From the NCBI RefSeq assembly GCF_014202895.1, contig NZ_JACHHV010000005.1, positions 1 through 64,000 of the forward strand: a DNA stretch of 64,000 bases, read 5' to 3'. A program made the translations under genes and the position numbers. Under the pieces are notes generated by a model. It was not told the origin of the DNA. It worked only from the letters and a program-made list of their open reading frames with translations, and did no database searches. The DNA is from Lactovum miscens. Lineage in GTDB: Bacteria > Bacillota > Bacilli > Lactobacillales > Streptococcaceae. Shown here one piece after another: positions 34,559 through 41,249 of the stretch (the stretch's first letter is position 1; every line of letters starts with the position of its first letter).

Positions 34559-34800
34559 TTATTTTGTTATTGAGTTGGTTTTCGGTTGACGTTCTGAAAC
34601 ATAACGAATTCCATAGAACTTGTTCAAATCATCAACGGTTGAATTGAATTTATCACGCAAAAGCTGACGTGAAGCTCTGGATGATGCCAATTCTTGCTGA
34701 AGCTCCACGAAGGACATTGTGGCGTATTGAGACTTGGTTTCGTTCTTCTCTTTTTCCTCTTCAGCTTTTTCAAATATCAAATCCTCGCCGTCATCATCTT
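34559..34800 (-). pseudogene. Duplicated C-terminal fragment of the relaxase gene
   Basis: The frame encodes about 73 residues nearly identical to the C-terminus of the MOB-P relaxase at 39519-41249 (shared EEEKEKNETKSQYATMSFVE and LLRDKFNSTVD). The DNA is also very similar, with scattered substitutions. The 5' part is missing, cut off near 34800 where resolvase sequence begins. It is a leftover of a second transfer element or plasmid. Confidence 0.88.
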
Positions 34801-35059: not shown

Positions 35060-35653
35060 TCAAATAAAATAAATATGAATTACAAAATGAGCTAAATCTG
35101 TTCTCTTATTATCTCCAATAGTCGTTTTCACCATAACACCATCTCCTTCAATATATAAGAATGGGGCTTTAATTTTTTTTTGTTCCGCATGGTCTTGATA
35201 ATAACGGTATTCGTCAAATTCTACTTGAAGCTTATGAGCTTGTTGCACAGCTTTTCTCACTGTTTCGTGGTTAATAACAAGATTATACATCATTTGTACA
35301 ATCTCAACTACTTGACAGTAAGTAACAATCGTTGAAAGTTTTGCAATTTGAAACATTAATCCTTTTGAGTGCCTCTCATAATGGCTGAGTCCCAATTTAT
35401 TATCTACAGGATAACACCAGACGCCATCTTTCTTATACCCCCGTCTGCTGAATGAAGTATCTCCAAAAGTGAACATAACAGTTCTTACGCCAAAAAGGAT
35501 GGGTTTCCACCCATTAGCTTTCATGATTGGATATATATATTCGTCGTATTGCTGTACAATTTTATAAAAACCTTGTAAATTATCATCCTTAAATTGTGAA
35601 GCCAAGTTACTTTCATTTATTACCTTTTGGTCCATCATTTTTCTGATATTCAT
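35060..35653 (-). pseudogene. Truncated ISLre2-family transposase (UPF0236)
   Basis: About 197 codons of the N-terminal part. The motif FLYIEGDGVMVKTTIGDNKR and the YPVDNKLGL and HETVRKAVQQAH segments identify the ISLre2 family, whose members are normally about 450 residues. The coding sequence stops abruptly after AHFVIHIYFI, where unrelated sequence begins. Probably an insertion remnant whose 3' two thirds were deleted. Confidence 0.8.
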
Positions 35654-35943: not shown

Positions 35944-36328
35944 GGCAAATTGTAAAATTAGTTTAGCCACCTGAAGAAAGAAAAAAACACCTGAATCTCT
36001 TATGCTTGAGTTTGAAAGAACAAAAAGTAGAAAAGGTTCAGTTCAAATCACTCACTTCGGATAATGGTCGTGAATTTTCCAGTTTACATGAAGCGGTGTC
36101 TTGTCCGGTTTACTATTGTCCTACTTATTTACGCAAGCTTTGAGCGTGGAAGTAATGAGAATCATAACCGCATGATTCGACGCTTCTTACCCAAAGGAAC
36201 AAAGCAAACAACAGCTGAAGCTGTTTTGAAAATTGAGACCTGGATGAATCGTTATCCAAGAAAAATGTTCAAGTATCAGACACCATTTCAGATGTTTAAG
36301 GGTGGCTAAATTAAATTTGCAATTTGCC
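35944..36328 (+). pseudogene. Internally deleted copy of the IS30-family element
   Basis: Both terminal repeats are present, but the sequence jumps from just before the transposase start codon (AAAAGTAGAAAAGG) to about codon 223 (TTCAGTTCAAATC). A one-base insertion around 36118-36122 also shifts the frame before the YASFERGSNENHNRMIRRFL segment. AAAAGG and TCAG occur at both sides of the deletion in the intact element, which suggests a microhomology deletion. Only the third catalytic residue remains, so it is inactive on its own. Confidence 0.88.
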
Positions 36329-37399
36329 AAACTGATTTGAAAATAACCTCACGAGTTTTATATCATCTCTTTCATAAAACCCAGCAGTAGTATTTGGCGG
36401 AACATGTAAAGCATACTTTGTTAATTTAATAAATGGTAAATTGAGTTTTTCTTTTAATATATCAAATTGGAATTCATATAACGAATCTTCTCCTTTAGAA
36501 TTTACAAACTGCTTAAATGAATTGTCTAACAGTTCTCTTTTACTAATTTTATTACGCCTAACAACATTTTTTCTCAAATAGCTTTCAGTAACTTTTTTAC
36601 TGAAATAAATATTTGAACTCGAATTTAGATAAAAATATTTATTCATTTTATCTATGATCTTATCATTTTTAATATAATATTCTTTGTTCTTACTGCCTAT
36701 ATCGTACACTCTTGAATCATATAAAAATAAACATAACCTTGGAGAAAGAGGGAAATATATTTCTAATCCTAAACAACCAAATCCGAGTCCACTAGACTTT
36801 CCATTTAGTCCTTTAGCTAATATATTATCTTTAATAATAGGACTATCTGTTGTAATAAACTCTCTATTCCTTGAATTATTATTAATAAGACAAAGTTCTA
36901 AATCAAATAGGCATTTTTGAAGGGTTGAAGCTGTTGATAGAAGAATAAGACTATTTTCTTTTTCATCATAGTCTATAATCTTTTTGACTTCATCAGAAAT
37001 TTTAGTTAAATCCCCCTTAACCCCATCTATTACTGCATTTTTAAAGCGTCTTTGTTGTTCAGTTGCTATCTCATTCATTTTTAACGTTCTTAAATCACTA
37101 ATAACGATAAAATAAATTAACTGAAGATACTCCTTACTCCCTTTTAACGGAAGTTTCTTTGAACGGATTATTTCTTTTATTATCTCACCTGATTTTGTCT
37201 CAATTTTTCCAAGCTCTTCTTCCACTTCATTAGTTTTTCCATATAGATTTTGTGCTTGACCCATTGTCCGTATTGAAGCATCTTCAATATATACATCTTC
37301 TTCAACAGCGAAAGTACCAATACTTTTACTACTGCTTGAAAAGTTTCTTAAATAGAATTTAGGAACATAATGATGTCTATTTCTTTTTATCTCACTCAT
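36311..37399 (-). CDS. DUF4238-domain protein, probably truncated at its C-terminus
   Basis: About 362 residues. The N-terminal motif RNRHHYVPKFYLRNFSSS is the hallmark of DUF4238, a histidine-rich domain found in accessory and defence-associated loci whose activity is unproven. The middle is helical, with FITTDSPII as a second conserved motif. The start at 37399 is chosen because it overlaps the fossil methylase stop (ATGA) and follows TGGATGGAAA; the open frame continues 20 codons upstream into the fossil. The final residues FGKLQI and the stop codon are encoded by the terminal repeat of the IS30 remnant, so the native end was lost. Confidence 0.7.
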   Translation of the reverse strand: MSEIKRNRHHYVPKFYLRNFSSSSKSIGTFAVEEDVYIEDASIRTMGQAQNLYGKTNEVEEELGKIETKSGEIIKEIIRSKKLPLKGSKEYLQLIYFIVISDLRTLKMNEIATEQQRRFKNAVIDGVKGDLTKISDEVKKIIDYDEKENSLILLSTASTLQKCLFDLELCLINNNSRNREFITTDSPIIKDNILAKGLNGKSSGLGFGCLGLEIYFPLSPRLCLFLYDSRVYDIGSKNKEYYIKNDKIIDKMNKYFYLNSSSNIYFSKKVTESYLRKNVVRRNKISKRELLDNSFKQFVNSKGEDSLYEFQFDILKEKLNLPFIKLTKYALHVPPNTTAGFYERDDIKLVRLFSNQFGKLQI

Positions 37400-37560
37400 T
37401 TTCCATCCACAATCCGAATTTATTCTTCCGTCAGTCATACAACTCATAAAATAGTGCATCTATCTGCTTGTCAGTTGCATTTTTTACTAATCAAAGTAGG
37501 ACTCCCATTCATCTTGCTGTTTGAGCACAACAAGTCTAATTCCGTTATTTTCTTGTCCAC
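37400..37560 (-). pseudogene. Fossil 3' end of a DNA methylase / type IIG restriction gene
   Basis: Read toward lower coordinates, the pieces IRLVVLKQQDEWESYFD, then (after a gap) DKQIDALFYELYD and, one base out of frame, LTEE and IRIVDGK, match the conserved C-terminus of Eco57I-like methylase/restriction proteins. A one-base deletion and stops show that it is dead. It lies immediately before the DUF4238 gene and supplies the bases around its start. The region 37561-37733 shows nothing else. Confidence 0.65.
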
Positions 37561-37733
37561 TACTATCCTTGCAGTTGAGCCATTCTTAATTTTTTGAGAT
37601 TGATAAGTATGGATGAAAATCGATAGTTTTGAATCAAGTTTACACTAGATAACATAGTAGAAAATGAATACACTGAATCATCATGAATTTGCTATTTTTT
37701 CTTTGGGGCTGTTACAACAGTAAAACGCTTTTC

Positions 37734-38906
37734 TTATTCCAAATCATCAATATCTTCATCATCTGAGTAATCAAAATTATTTGTCCCAATTTGGGAAATC
37801 TTATTTAAGCTCTCTAAAAATACTGGATTGAACATTCCAGTTAGAGTATTAGCACGTGAGATCACTATATTTCCTACATTTGCTGAGACAATACTCAATG
37901 CATTTTGTACAGCTTGAGCATAAGTTTGAGCAAAAGCTTGAGCAAAAGTTTGCAGTAATGCAAATGAGTTTCCGAATGATGGTAATTCCGTCTTATGAAT
38001 CATCGAAGTGCTTAAGCTTTTAATTTCTTCCGTAAAATGTACTAAAAACGTCTTGATAAATTGAAAGTCTTCATTTCTAACCTTTTTATTATGAGCTACT
38101 TTGTTACGTATTTTTTTTACTTTTTTATATTTTTCGATAAACACTTTTCCTTGAAATTCAGATTTCATATATTTTGAAAAGTATTCATCCCAAGCAGAAA
38201 ACCTCCGCACCCTCCCGTCAAAATCTGTAAAGAAATCTAATAAATCGTTTAAAGCATCTGGAGTATCATCCACTCTGATCAATTTTGTTTGAAGCCCATC
38301 ACCTTCGCCTTTTTGCGCAAATATTTTTTTAAATAAAAGTGTTTCTAGTCCAGTCAGGTTAAGTTCTTCAAGTATTGGTTTTCGGTTTGTCTCCCTTAGT
38401 TGTTTTGGTAAAAAAGCGCGTTCTTCCCATTCTCTTCCTAACTCTTTAAAAAAAACTACTTGAATTAATCGTCTCAATTCATTTTCGAAATCATTGAATA
38501 AAGGATACATTTTTTCGGAATAGTATTTTGAAAGTTTTCTATCCAAGAAAAGGCACTTTCCTCGATTTTTTTGGACTATTATCTCAAATTCTTTAATGAA
38601 ATCATCATAAAAACTCATGTTTTTCCAATGAATGTCTTCTTGAATAGAAAATTCAAATATATGAGCCACATCAAAATCTATAGATTTAAAATCTGTTAAT
38701 CGTAGGCTAAATTCAATATTTTTATTTTCACGTGCCTTATAAAAAACTGTTTGAACCTGTCGACTATTATTGATAGGTTGAATTTTAGAATTTTGAAACC
38801 AAAGTGCTACACTACTCCGAGAGTTCCTAGTTGGAGAAGGATCTTCCTCAGCCGTATTATTTTTTGTAGGTGGAATAACCATAATTTCAAAAGAAAGTCT
38901 ATTCAT
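37734..38906 (-). CDS. HEPN-type candidate abortive-infection ribonuclease
   Basis: A 390-residue soluble protein of unknown family. The segment KKVKKIRNKVAHNKKVRNED (about residues 258-277) carries the R-N-x3-H motif of HEPN ribonucleases, in the usual helical setting, as in Apea/Abi-type proteins. The C-terminus has a four-residue periodic helix, TFAQAFAQTYAQAVQNAL, and a very acidic tail (DYSDDEDIDDLE). The start at 38906 follows GGAGAG by 6 bases; an open frame continues upstream into a methylase fossil. By its motif and neighbourhood I infer a phage-defence role. Confidence 0.6.
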   Translation of the reverse strand: MNRLSFEIMVIPPTKNNTAEEDPSPTRNSRSSVALWFQNSKIQPINNSRQVQTVFYKARENKNIEFSLRLTDFKSIDFDVAHIFEFSIQEDIHWKNMSFYDDFIKEFEIIVQKNRGKCLFLDRKLSKYYSEKMYPLFNDFENELRRLIQVVFFKELGREWEERAFLPKQLRETNRKPILEELNLTGLETLLFKKIFAQKGEGDGLQTKLIRVDDTPDALNDLLDFFTDFDGRVRRFSAWDEYFSKYMKSEFQGKVFIEKYKKVKKIRNKVAHNKKVRNEDFQFIKTFLVHFTEEIKSLSTSMIHKTELPSFGNSFALLQTFAQAFAQTYAQAVQNALSIVSANVGNIVISRANTLTGMFNPVFLESLNKISQIGTNNFDYSDDEDIDDLE

Positions 38907-39005
38907 TTTTCTCTCCATAATCCGAATCTCATCTTCCGTCAATCCATAAATCTCATAAACCAACTGGTCAATCTGCTTATCAGTAGCTATGAGTTTACTG
39001 CATCT
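38906..39005 (-). pseudogene. Second fossil 3' end of a DNA methylase / restriction gene
   Basis: The minus-strand translation KLIATDKQIDQLVYEIYGLT then EDEIRIMERK is again the conserved C-terminus of an Eco57I-like methylase, in frame, and similar in DNA to the fossil before the DUF4238 gene. The rest of the methylase gene is gone; unrelated sequence (the 3' end of the membrane-protein gene) begins at about 39005. The fossil contributes the ribosome binding site of the HEPN gene. Confidence 0.7.
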
Positions 39006-39317
39006 TTAAATGGTTTTCAATTGAGATGACAAAATTCCTGAAATACAGTCTATCATCTGCTGAAACCAGAGAATAATTGCAAATCCAGACAATCCATTTA
39101 TCTGAAATCCTTTTGCCTTAAAATCAAGTAATAACGGTCGTAAAAACTGTGAGAGAACGCCTACTAAAATTGCAAGTTTTACAACACCTAGCAAACCTAA
39201 AGCAATCCGTTTTTTTATTGACTTATTATCAATCTTAACGTAGTATTCCATTATTGGTACTCCTAAAGAGAAAATTGTGTAAAAAACACCCACCCAGATA
39301 AACCCAGAATTACTCAC
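39006..39317 (-). CDS. Small membrane protein of unknown function
   Basis: A 103-residue protein with three hydrophobic segments (about 7-24, 42-62 and 76-98: WVGVFYTIFSLGVPIMEYYV, LGLLGVVKLAILVGVLSQF, SGFAIILWFQQMIDCIS). No known motif. It stands upstream of the methylase fossil and the HEPN gene on the same strand, so it could be the remaining partner of either. The ribosome binding site is unclear. Confidence 0.5.
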   Translation of the reverse strand: MSNSGFIWVGVFYTIFSLGVPIMEYYVKIDNKSIKKRIALGLLGVVKLAILVGVLSQFLRPLLLDFKAKGFQINGLSGFAIILWFQQMIDCISGILSSQLKTI

Positions 39318-39518: not shown

Positions 39519-41249
39519 TTAAAGTCCCTGTGCAACGTTTTTCTGTTTTGTTTCAGAAGCAGACTTAATTTCATAAAACTTGTTCAACTCGTCAACGGTT
39601 GAATTGAATTTGTCACGCAAAAGCTGACGTGAAGCTCTGGCTGATACCAGCTCTTGCTGAAGTTCCACGAAGGACATTGTGGCGTATTGAGACTTGGTTT
39701 CGTTTTTCTCTTTTTCCTCTTCAGCTTTTTCAAGTATCAAATCCTCGCCATCATCTTCTTGATAATCTTCTGTCACAAAATGCTTTGCGGCTTCATTGAG
39801 TTCAATAATTTTTTCGTCCAATTCGCTTAATTTATCACGAGCTGCCTCAAGTGCAGCATTCAATTGTTGCTCCAGGTTCACCATCTGATTTCCTGTGGTT
39901 ACATCATGTTCGGCCAAGAAATTAATGGCATCTACCAGTTGATTAATTGTTGAAATAATAGGTTCTTTCTTAATAGGAATCGTTCCATAATACTTATTCA
40001 ACTGCTTGATAAGCGTTTCACCTGTGAGATAACGACCCTGGTTCTTTTCATTCTTACTAATGAAGTAAAAGTACTCCTTCTTTTTGAGATATAAAGTGTA
40101 GTTTCCATTCTCTAACTTATCAACTTTATAGCTGCCAACAAAAACCTGACCTCGATTTTCTACCCCAAAATCAAGATTGATATAGTAGCCTTTTTCATTA
40201 ACTTGATTAATTTGCCAGGGCTCTAAAGTAATTTGATAATCAAAATCGTTTCGAACAAAATCTTCAGTCTCTTCATACTGTTTGACAACATCTTCAACAG
40301 AAAATTGGCCCACATTTTCTTCAAACTGTTTTAGAAGACTTTTTAAATTATAAGCTTCAGGATCTTTCTTATTTAGAACACGGCCTCTTGTATTTCTCAA
40401 TTGAGGTTCATCAAGCAGCTTGAAGGTTGACCACTTACCTGAAAAATCAACTTCCAAGTTTAAAGCACTGGCTTTTAATGTAAAATCTTCTAAATTAGAA
40501 GAATGAGTCATCAGAAAATCCAACCGTTGCTTTATTTTGTTTTTGTAAATCTGATCTGCCTGCCATTGAGTGTATCTAAGATGTGAATTTTTAGGAGATT
40601 TTTCAATTATCTTTGCGCCTGCTTCAGATGCAATTTTATCTGATATTTTCTCAAAAAGTTCTTTTGATTGATCTTTACTCTTTCCAGATTTTGATTTTGT
40701 AATCTTCCACGGCATTGACTTTCCCGTCACAAGATTCGTAGTGTTAATAATGATGTGATTGTGTATGTGATGTTTATCAGTGTGAGTCGCAATGATAAAT
40801 TCATACTCACCACCTGTGAATTCTAAAACAGTTTTACGACCAAGTTCGTGAATTTCTTCAGGAGTTAAATGATCTTCTGGGGAGAAAGATTGGATTAAGT
40901 GACGGGCTAAGACGGCATTGTTTCTTTCCAAGCTGCTCATTTTAAACTCAAGCTTTTTGGTTTTTGGGTTAAAATCTAAATCCGTTCCTTTTGAAATGGC
41001 TGCGAGACGTTTAGTTGCCAAAAATTCAGTAGCGGCATCGTACACGTCTTCGATGTGATAACCTGAAACGAGTTGTTTGCTCATGGTTTTATCATCATTC
41101 GTTACATAAGGAAATAGATTTTCGAAATGGCTCTTCTCCTCTCCTTTTTTCTTTTTTGAAACGGTCACCTTATCCGCATTCTCAACATAATTTTTTGCTT
41201 GGATTAATTTGTTAACATTATGAATCTGAAATTGTTTTGTATAAACCAT
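39519..41249 (-). CDS. MOB-P type conjugative relaxase
   Basis: A 576-residue relaxase that would nick oriT and pilot the single strand through the transfer channel. The metal-binding HUH motif is H156-T-D-K-H-H-I-H163-N-H165 (in FIIATHTDKHHIHNHIIINT). The upstream LARHLIQSFSPEDHLTPEEI segment and a leading tyrosine-rich region are typical. Residues 430-576 are helical and charged, probably a coiled coil, and a copy of the very C-terminus persists as a fossil at 34559-34800. It follows mobC without a gap (mobC stop 41250, relaxase ATG 41249). A terminator follows. Confidence 0.9.
   Translation of the reverse strand: MVYTKQFQIHNVNKLIQAKNYVENADKVTVSKKKKGEEKSHFENLFPYVTNDDKTMSKQLVSGYHIEDVYDAATEFLATKRLAAISKGTDLDFNPKTKKLEFKMSSLERNNAVLARHLIQSFSPEDHLTPEEIHELGRKTVLEFTGGEYEFIIATHTDKHHIHNHIIINTTNLVTGKSMPWKITKSKSGKSKDQSKELFEKISDKIASEAGAKIIEKSPKNSHLRYTQWQADQIYKNKIKQRLDFLMTHSSNLEDFTLKASALNLEVDFSGKWSTFKLLDEPQLRNTRGRVLNKKDPEAYNLKSLLKQFEENVGQFSVEDVVKQYEETEDFVRNDFDYQITLEPWQINQVNEKGYYINLDFGVENRGQVFVGSYKVDKLENGNYTLYLKKKEYFYFISKNEKNQGRYLTGETLIKQLNKYYGTIPIKKEPIISTINQLVDAINFLAEHDVTTGNQMVNLEQQLNAALEAARDKLSELDEKIIELNEAAKHFVTEDYQEDDGEDLILEKAEEEKEKNETKSQYATMSFVELQQELVSARASRQLLRDKFNSTVDELNKFYEIKSASETKQKNVAQGL

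Follow-up and report, generated by a model that had tools for sequence, protein, structure and literature searches.

Orphan methylase gene ends in front of HEPN-like and DUF4238 genes of Lactovum miscens: probable traces of gene acquisition at the 3′ ends of upstream genes

The HEPN-like gene and the DUF4238 gene in the window, by which we mean the whole 64,000-nucleotide stretch of Lactovum miscens DNA analysed here, are each preceded by a relic of the 3′ end of a type IIG (Eco57I-like) methylase gene, and orphan methylase tails of this kind are common in many bacteria and archaea. We think it probable, with some reserve, that these fossils are displaced gene ends left behind when genes were acquired at the 3′ end of a gene lying upstream of them. 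A cargo gene would arrive on DNA that also carries a homologous gene end, and this end would recombine with that of the resident gene. The resident gene would remain complete, now with the incoming end and with the cargo directly after its stop codon, and its own former end would persist downstream of the cargo as an orphaned direct repeat. Repeated rounds would generate arrays of the form methylase, tail, cargo, tail, cargo. The recombination route may be the single crossover of a circle or a combination of one homologous and one non-homologous joint. In the window, the ends of two different methylases would have come to precede the HEPN-like and DUF4238 genes, with the methylase body now gone; because that body is missing, the local history is reconstructed by analogy, and because no before-and-after pair of one strain was seen, no insertion event has been observed directly.

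The minus-strand order of the locus is relaxase, 103-aa ORF, F2, HEPN-like gene, F1, DUF4238 gene and insertion-sequence remnants. F2 (38907–38993, minus strand; IATDKQIDQLVYEIYGLTEDEIRIMERK) is an open frame that reads ATDKQIDQLVYEIYGLTEDEIRIMERK. F1 (37399–37481, minus strand) reads ATDKQIDALFYELYD, followed by a one-base deletion and then by LTEE-stop-IRIVDGK-stop. Both match by profile the conserved C-terminal tail DKQIDxLVYELYGLTEEEI of type IIG enzymes, and in the whole genome the tail profile finds exactly these two matches (E 1.2e-17 for F2 and 4.6e-7 for F1) and no intact gene with such a tail. A methyltransferase body with an NPPY motif is likewise absent from the window locus, where F2 is preceded by the 103-aa ORF (39006–39317, minus strand; no Pfam match and no relative in the plasmid search) and the intact relaxase gene (39519–41249, minus strand), which lies upstream of the whole cargo stretch. 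In a tblastn search of plasmids, most matches to the F2 peptide are TaqI/Eco57I-like N-6 DNA methylases, and a full-length enzyme that bears the tail on a viral contig (L024) is classed by PADLOC as REase_MTase_IIG with 1081 bits. Among 319 genomes of the window's phylum, the tail occurs in only five others at E 1e-4, in frames of 740–1154 aa, and the window genome is alone in having orphan tails. A further vestige of the F1 methylase, LKQQDEWESYFD at about 37488–37529 (minus strand), matches the pre-tail region of intact enzymes such as L048 (IQQDEWEEYFESYQ) and L024; relative to the intact C-termini, an internal deletion lies between this vestige and the F1 tail.

The two relics are similar in DNA without being identical, with 61 of 80 aligned bases shared and a local alignment score of 39 against a best score of 21 in 2000 shuffles. 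Their joints to the downstream genes are equivalent. F1 ends in GGAAAATGAG, where the ATG of the DUF4238 gene (36311–37405, minus strand; 364 aa) and the TGA of the tail overlap as ATGA. F2 ends in GGAGAGAAAAATGAAT, joined in the same way but with one extra A in the A-run, because of which the F2 stop is lost and the tail runs in frame with the HEPN-like gene (37734–38906, minus strand; 390 aa). The HEPN start lies at an offset behind F2 identical to that of the DUF4238 start behind F1, and is preceded by GGAGAG from the tail. The downstream proteins do not include the tails: a DUF4238 homologue (L021) starts at the corresponding methionine and is located behind a resolvase gene, not a methylase tail. 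In all of these respects (a common methylase fossil before both genes, starts at the fossil stop, and shared segments that lie outside the downstream proteins) the earlier sequence-only reading of this locus was borne out.

That reading had also supposed that recombination in the 3′ end of one restriction gene swapped in different downstream genes twice. The differences between F1 and F2 fall 8/1/10 at codon positions 1/2/3 (a hand count on the alignment), as would be expected of functional methylases, and the relics therefore appear to descend from two different methylases and not from one gene swapped twice. The locus had in addition been taken to end at 39005, but the anatomy extends beyond that position because the 3′ end of the relaxase gene is duplicated around the whole stretch: one copy (39539–39760, minus strand) lies within the intact gene and an orphan copy (34579–34800, minus strand) follows the cargo in the same orientation. 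The two copies, which differ at 25 positions (6/7/12 at codon positions 1/2/3; 89% identity), form a 222-bp direct repeat that encloses the whole fossil region in a geometry like that of the tail arrays found elsewhere. Two insertion-sequence remnants were also noted in this part of the window. The end of an IS30-type element (36311–36338), present as well on contig C55 of the genome, overlaps the last DUF4238 codons, and a fragment of a UPF0236 (ISLre2-type) transposase is located at 35060–35653.

The assignment of the DUF4238 gene is secure (PF14022, E 7e-39, 134 bits against a gathering cut-off of 27), and that of the HEPN-like gene is weaker. Its match to Pfam HEPN_Swt1 (E 7.5e-4) is weak and below the cut-off, and its profile gives only weak matches in the PDB, to inositol monophosphatase; an alignment of four family members contains an invariant R-N-x-V-x-H motif, in agreement with the R-x4-6-H pattern. 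A single-sequence structure model (pLDDT 37) was unusable. No relatives of the HEPN-like gene were found in plasmids or viral contigs, and none of the DUF4238 gene in viral contigs; plasmids do contain matches to the latter. A DUF4238 protein that protects Escherichia coli against T7 is described in the P2/P4 hotspot account of PMC9122126, and the HEPN-like and DUF4238 genes of the window may have defence activity. In the window's bacterial family, strong members of the HEPN family occupy one of three positions: after purK, in a type I restriction locus between hsdS and hsdR, or after one other gene. In four type I restriction operons (L301, L302, L303 and L312), the HEPN-like gene overlaps both the hsdS end and the hsdR start. 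An intact type IIG methylase directly followed by a DUF4238 gene or by a member of the window HEPN family, which the earlier reading had proposed to look for, was not found; the HEPN family does occur behind complete genes, but these are hsdS and purK of the same bacterial family and not methylases. Other HEPN proteins are found behind orphan methylase tails at two loci (L058 and L059).

Tails without a methylase in front of them are readily found in other genomes. A degenerate DNA pattern for the tail, applied to a GTDB genome set, returned 111 stretches of which 80 were readable; about one-quarter of the tails found in this way are orphans, in that the open frame leading up to them is shorter than 95 aa, and several loci contain two. 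When 34 other genomes were searched whole, 52 of 119 tails lay in open frames shorter than 150 aa, in a set that includes genomes picked for an already seen orphan. Orphans were far rarer for the NPPY catalytic stretch of the same enzymes (1/84; Fisher 1e-13 against the tails) and for the GuaA C-terminus under the same frame test (0/27). Because the 34-genome set was partly selected for orphans, a further sample was drawn irrespective of them from the order of one of its genomes. Excluding two genomes already known, frames exceeding 400 aa account for 34 tails of this order-wide sample; 8 further tails are internal orphans, and about 6 short ones lie at contig ends. For five of the eight internal orphans, a longer copy is present upstream on the same contig within about 6 kb. 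Complete isolate replicons also contain orphan tails (CP050016, CP050017 and NZ_LR882948, the last with a weak second tail of 10 bits after an intact methylase), and misassembly is therefore excluded as their source. Several contigs (L079, L090, G780:C44, G811:C45 and G826:C30) end about 150 bases or less from a methylase tail, in the manner of assemblies broken at repeats.

Profile searches of the tail loci show that many of the tails stand in arrays of the form methylase–tail–cargo–tail–cargo. In one (L081/L166), a full methylase with its tail is followed by units with four further tails, and two others (L055/L168 and L044/L167) have four tails each. The arrays are directional: across all those examined, 27 of 28 orphans follow the longer copy in the same orientation, and the longer copy belonging to the sole upstream orphan (L176) is itself a fragment of 231 aa. 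Methylase homology in the orphans ends at most 68 aa before the VYE motif, with a median of 22 and a range of 5–68 aa. Insertion that always took place beside the methylase would leave a gradient of decay along the array, but tail scores do not fall consistently as distance from the methylase grows. Third codon positions account for 55% of the differences between tails of one array and second positions for 14%, as compared with at most 42% and at least 26%, respectively, in simulations of neutral decay passed through the same profile filter; pairs of tails within an array are mutually non-independent, making the codon-position p-values indicative only. The tails therefore appear to have diverged largely as ends of working methylases, and their differences indicate, as far as sequence comparison goes, an origin in different functional enzymes. 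The exchange site envisaged in the earlier reading is supported in outline, but with accretion in arrays, not replacement, as its outcome.

The process had been tied to restriction genes, a restriction that does not stand: the purK gene and the window relaxase show the same pattern, and it is therefore not specific to such genes. In one genome of the window's bacterial family (G309), a HEPN relative lies directly behind purK, and after it comes a 93-bp copy of the purK 3′ end in a decayed state. A search with this purK 3′ end matched 37 of 59 genomes, and in 6 of these 37 an orphan purK end lies downstream on the same strand. In these purK–purB regions (L266–L271), the stretch after purK forms a hotspot in which gene content varies and orphan purK ends occur, and the last purK codons vary strongly among genomes. 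HEPN relatives are part of the cargo in two cases (L266 and L271), and elsewhere the cargo varies by genome. Three of the six orphans (L266, L267 and L269) are clearly nearer to the purK of other genomes than to their own; in G842 (L267), it is the resident end that is atypical and the orphan that has the usual form. In two of the six, the resident end is nearest or tied. Three orphans begin at the identical base. Pooled differences between purK genes and their own orphans number 40/39/54 by codon position and are much less skewed than those of the arrays, in part owing to the pair from L268, whose comparison crosses an indel.

The cargo behind orphan tails includes Gabija GajA/GajB, a Schlafen/AlbA protein, HEPN and HEPN_LA2681 proteins, a GmrSD-type protein (HEC-05), DUF6414, DUF3800, DUF488, RhuM, MqsA antitoxins (toxin–antitoxin), DUF4258 and IS200-like transposases; a TIR protein occurs further along one array and AbiH behind an intact tail. 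Ordinary genes (Mut7-C, glycosyltransferase, lipocalin, SnoaL) are also found downstream of tails. The idea of a defence-gene exchange site agrees with the presence of these defence families, and any enrichment for them is putative. IS200-like Y1 transposases account for 3 of 46 cargo genes; at four loci (L026, L045, L180 and L182) such a gene lies behind an orphan tail, sometimes starting at the tail stop. Many cargo genes start at the tail stop or a few bases from it, and at the end of many tails the codons for IVEG, GTNGAGGG, contain an embedded ribosome-binding site from which cargo starting at the stop can be translated. Within the final 20 nt, a ribosome-binding 5-mer is present in 27 of 63 intact tails, in 28 of 49 orphan tails and in 68 of 550 other ORF ends; GAG is favored at the last conserved glutamate with borderline significance (p ~0.055 in each of the intact and orphan sets). 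The embedded site may well be used for translation of the cargo. A broader and more tentative proposal, which we regard as possible and not as the likely state of affairs, is that type IIG gene ends are a general integrase-free docking site at which cargo arriving with its own methylase end recombines with any end of this type and so docks in the same orientation, forming directional arrays of defence genes translated from the tail-encoded ribosome-binding site.

Several other explanations for the orphan ends must be weighed against displacement by incoming DNA. Cargo might enter beside the gene end with the resident end copied in place, as a long target duplication. Long direct repeats of the target do flank the inserts (F1/F2, relaxase, purK and the methylase arrays), a geometry equal to the long, variable duplications that PMC3031569 reports for restriction–modification genes, and the purK orphans for which the resident end is nearest or tied would be compatible with such copying. 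Against it, the orphan purK ends of G842, G846 and G852 are nearer to the purK of other genomes than to their own, and tails within arrays differ in the manner of functional alleles; we judge this explanation unlikely. The allele-like differences also fit the decay of tandem or neighbouring methylases, in which each tail would be the remainder of a gene that has lost its full body. Tandem long copies (L089) and partial fragments of about 130–230 aa exist, but in nearly every case the deletion would have had to end inside the last hundred codons, and internal methylase segments are almost never orphaned. Decay of this kind seems to us quite improbable as the general source of the tails.

It is also conceivable that small elements are moved by a recombinase or a single-strand transposase for which the gene end serves as attachment site. 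Left boundaries coincide near the QID codons in some cases, three purK orphans share their starting base, and, beside the Y1 transposases in the cargo, an integrase gene lies about 150 bp behind an orphan tail of CP050016. Most units, however, lack a recombinase, the left boundaries are spread over 5–68 aa, and none of four tails folded as DNA formed a hairpin beyond chance (z-scores −0.69 to 1.53), which makes site-specific integration very doubtful. No more probable, in our estimation, is that the tails are functional leaders retained for translational coupling of the downstream gene. The enrichment of ribosome-binding 5-mers at the tail end and the many cargo genes that start at or near the stop would suit this role, but many orphans, F1 included, contain stops or frameshifts or have little open frame before them. 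Acquisition of cargo at the 3′ end of an upstream gene, with displacement of the resident end, is the explanation that we favor.

These observations bear on the way in which single genes enter defence islands in the absence of visible mobile elements. Orphan gene ends are a sequence-level footprint for which any genome can be scanned, and they point to undescribed genes beside defence genes. The mechanism of acquisition becomes testable at purK in naturally transformable streptococci. We found no description of methylase-tail arrays in the literature searched, whose scope left aside preprints and most subscription papers.

Some features of the arrays are familiar from other systems. SCC at rlmH and phage 21 at icd integrate at the 3′ end of a protein-coding gene, and the element restores that end. 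As in our model, the old end is displaced behind the insert and arrays are possible; unlike these elements, most units here lack a recombinase, often consist of one gene and have no sharp common core. Integron cassettes, like the units of the tail arrays, are small gene units strung together in one direction with a site that repeats. The repeat here is a coding gene end, however, the four folded tails have no attC-like palindrome, and no integron integrase is present among the genes examined here. The P2/P4 defence hotspots of PMC9122126 resemble the arrays in carrying variable single-gene defence cargo at one place, including the DUF4238 protein, but the passage on that protein does not mention a duplicated gene end. 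Similar in geometry are the restriction–modification genes that, according to Nobusato et al. (2000), as cited in PMC3031569, insert with long, variable target duplication: in both cases, as far as that citation describes them, long and variable direct repeats of a target gene flank the insert without an obvious transposase. In those insertions, the restriction–modification genes are the insert, whereas here a methylase, purK or relaxase gene is the target and the cargo consists of other genes; moreover, the repeats seen here are often diverged alleles, and the insertions stack into arrays.
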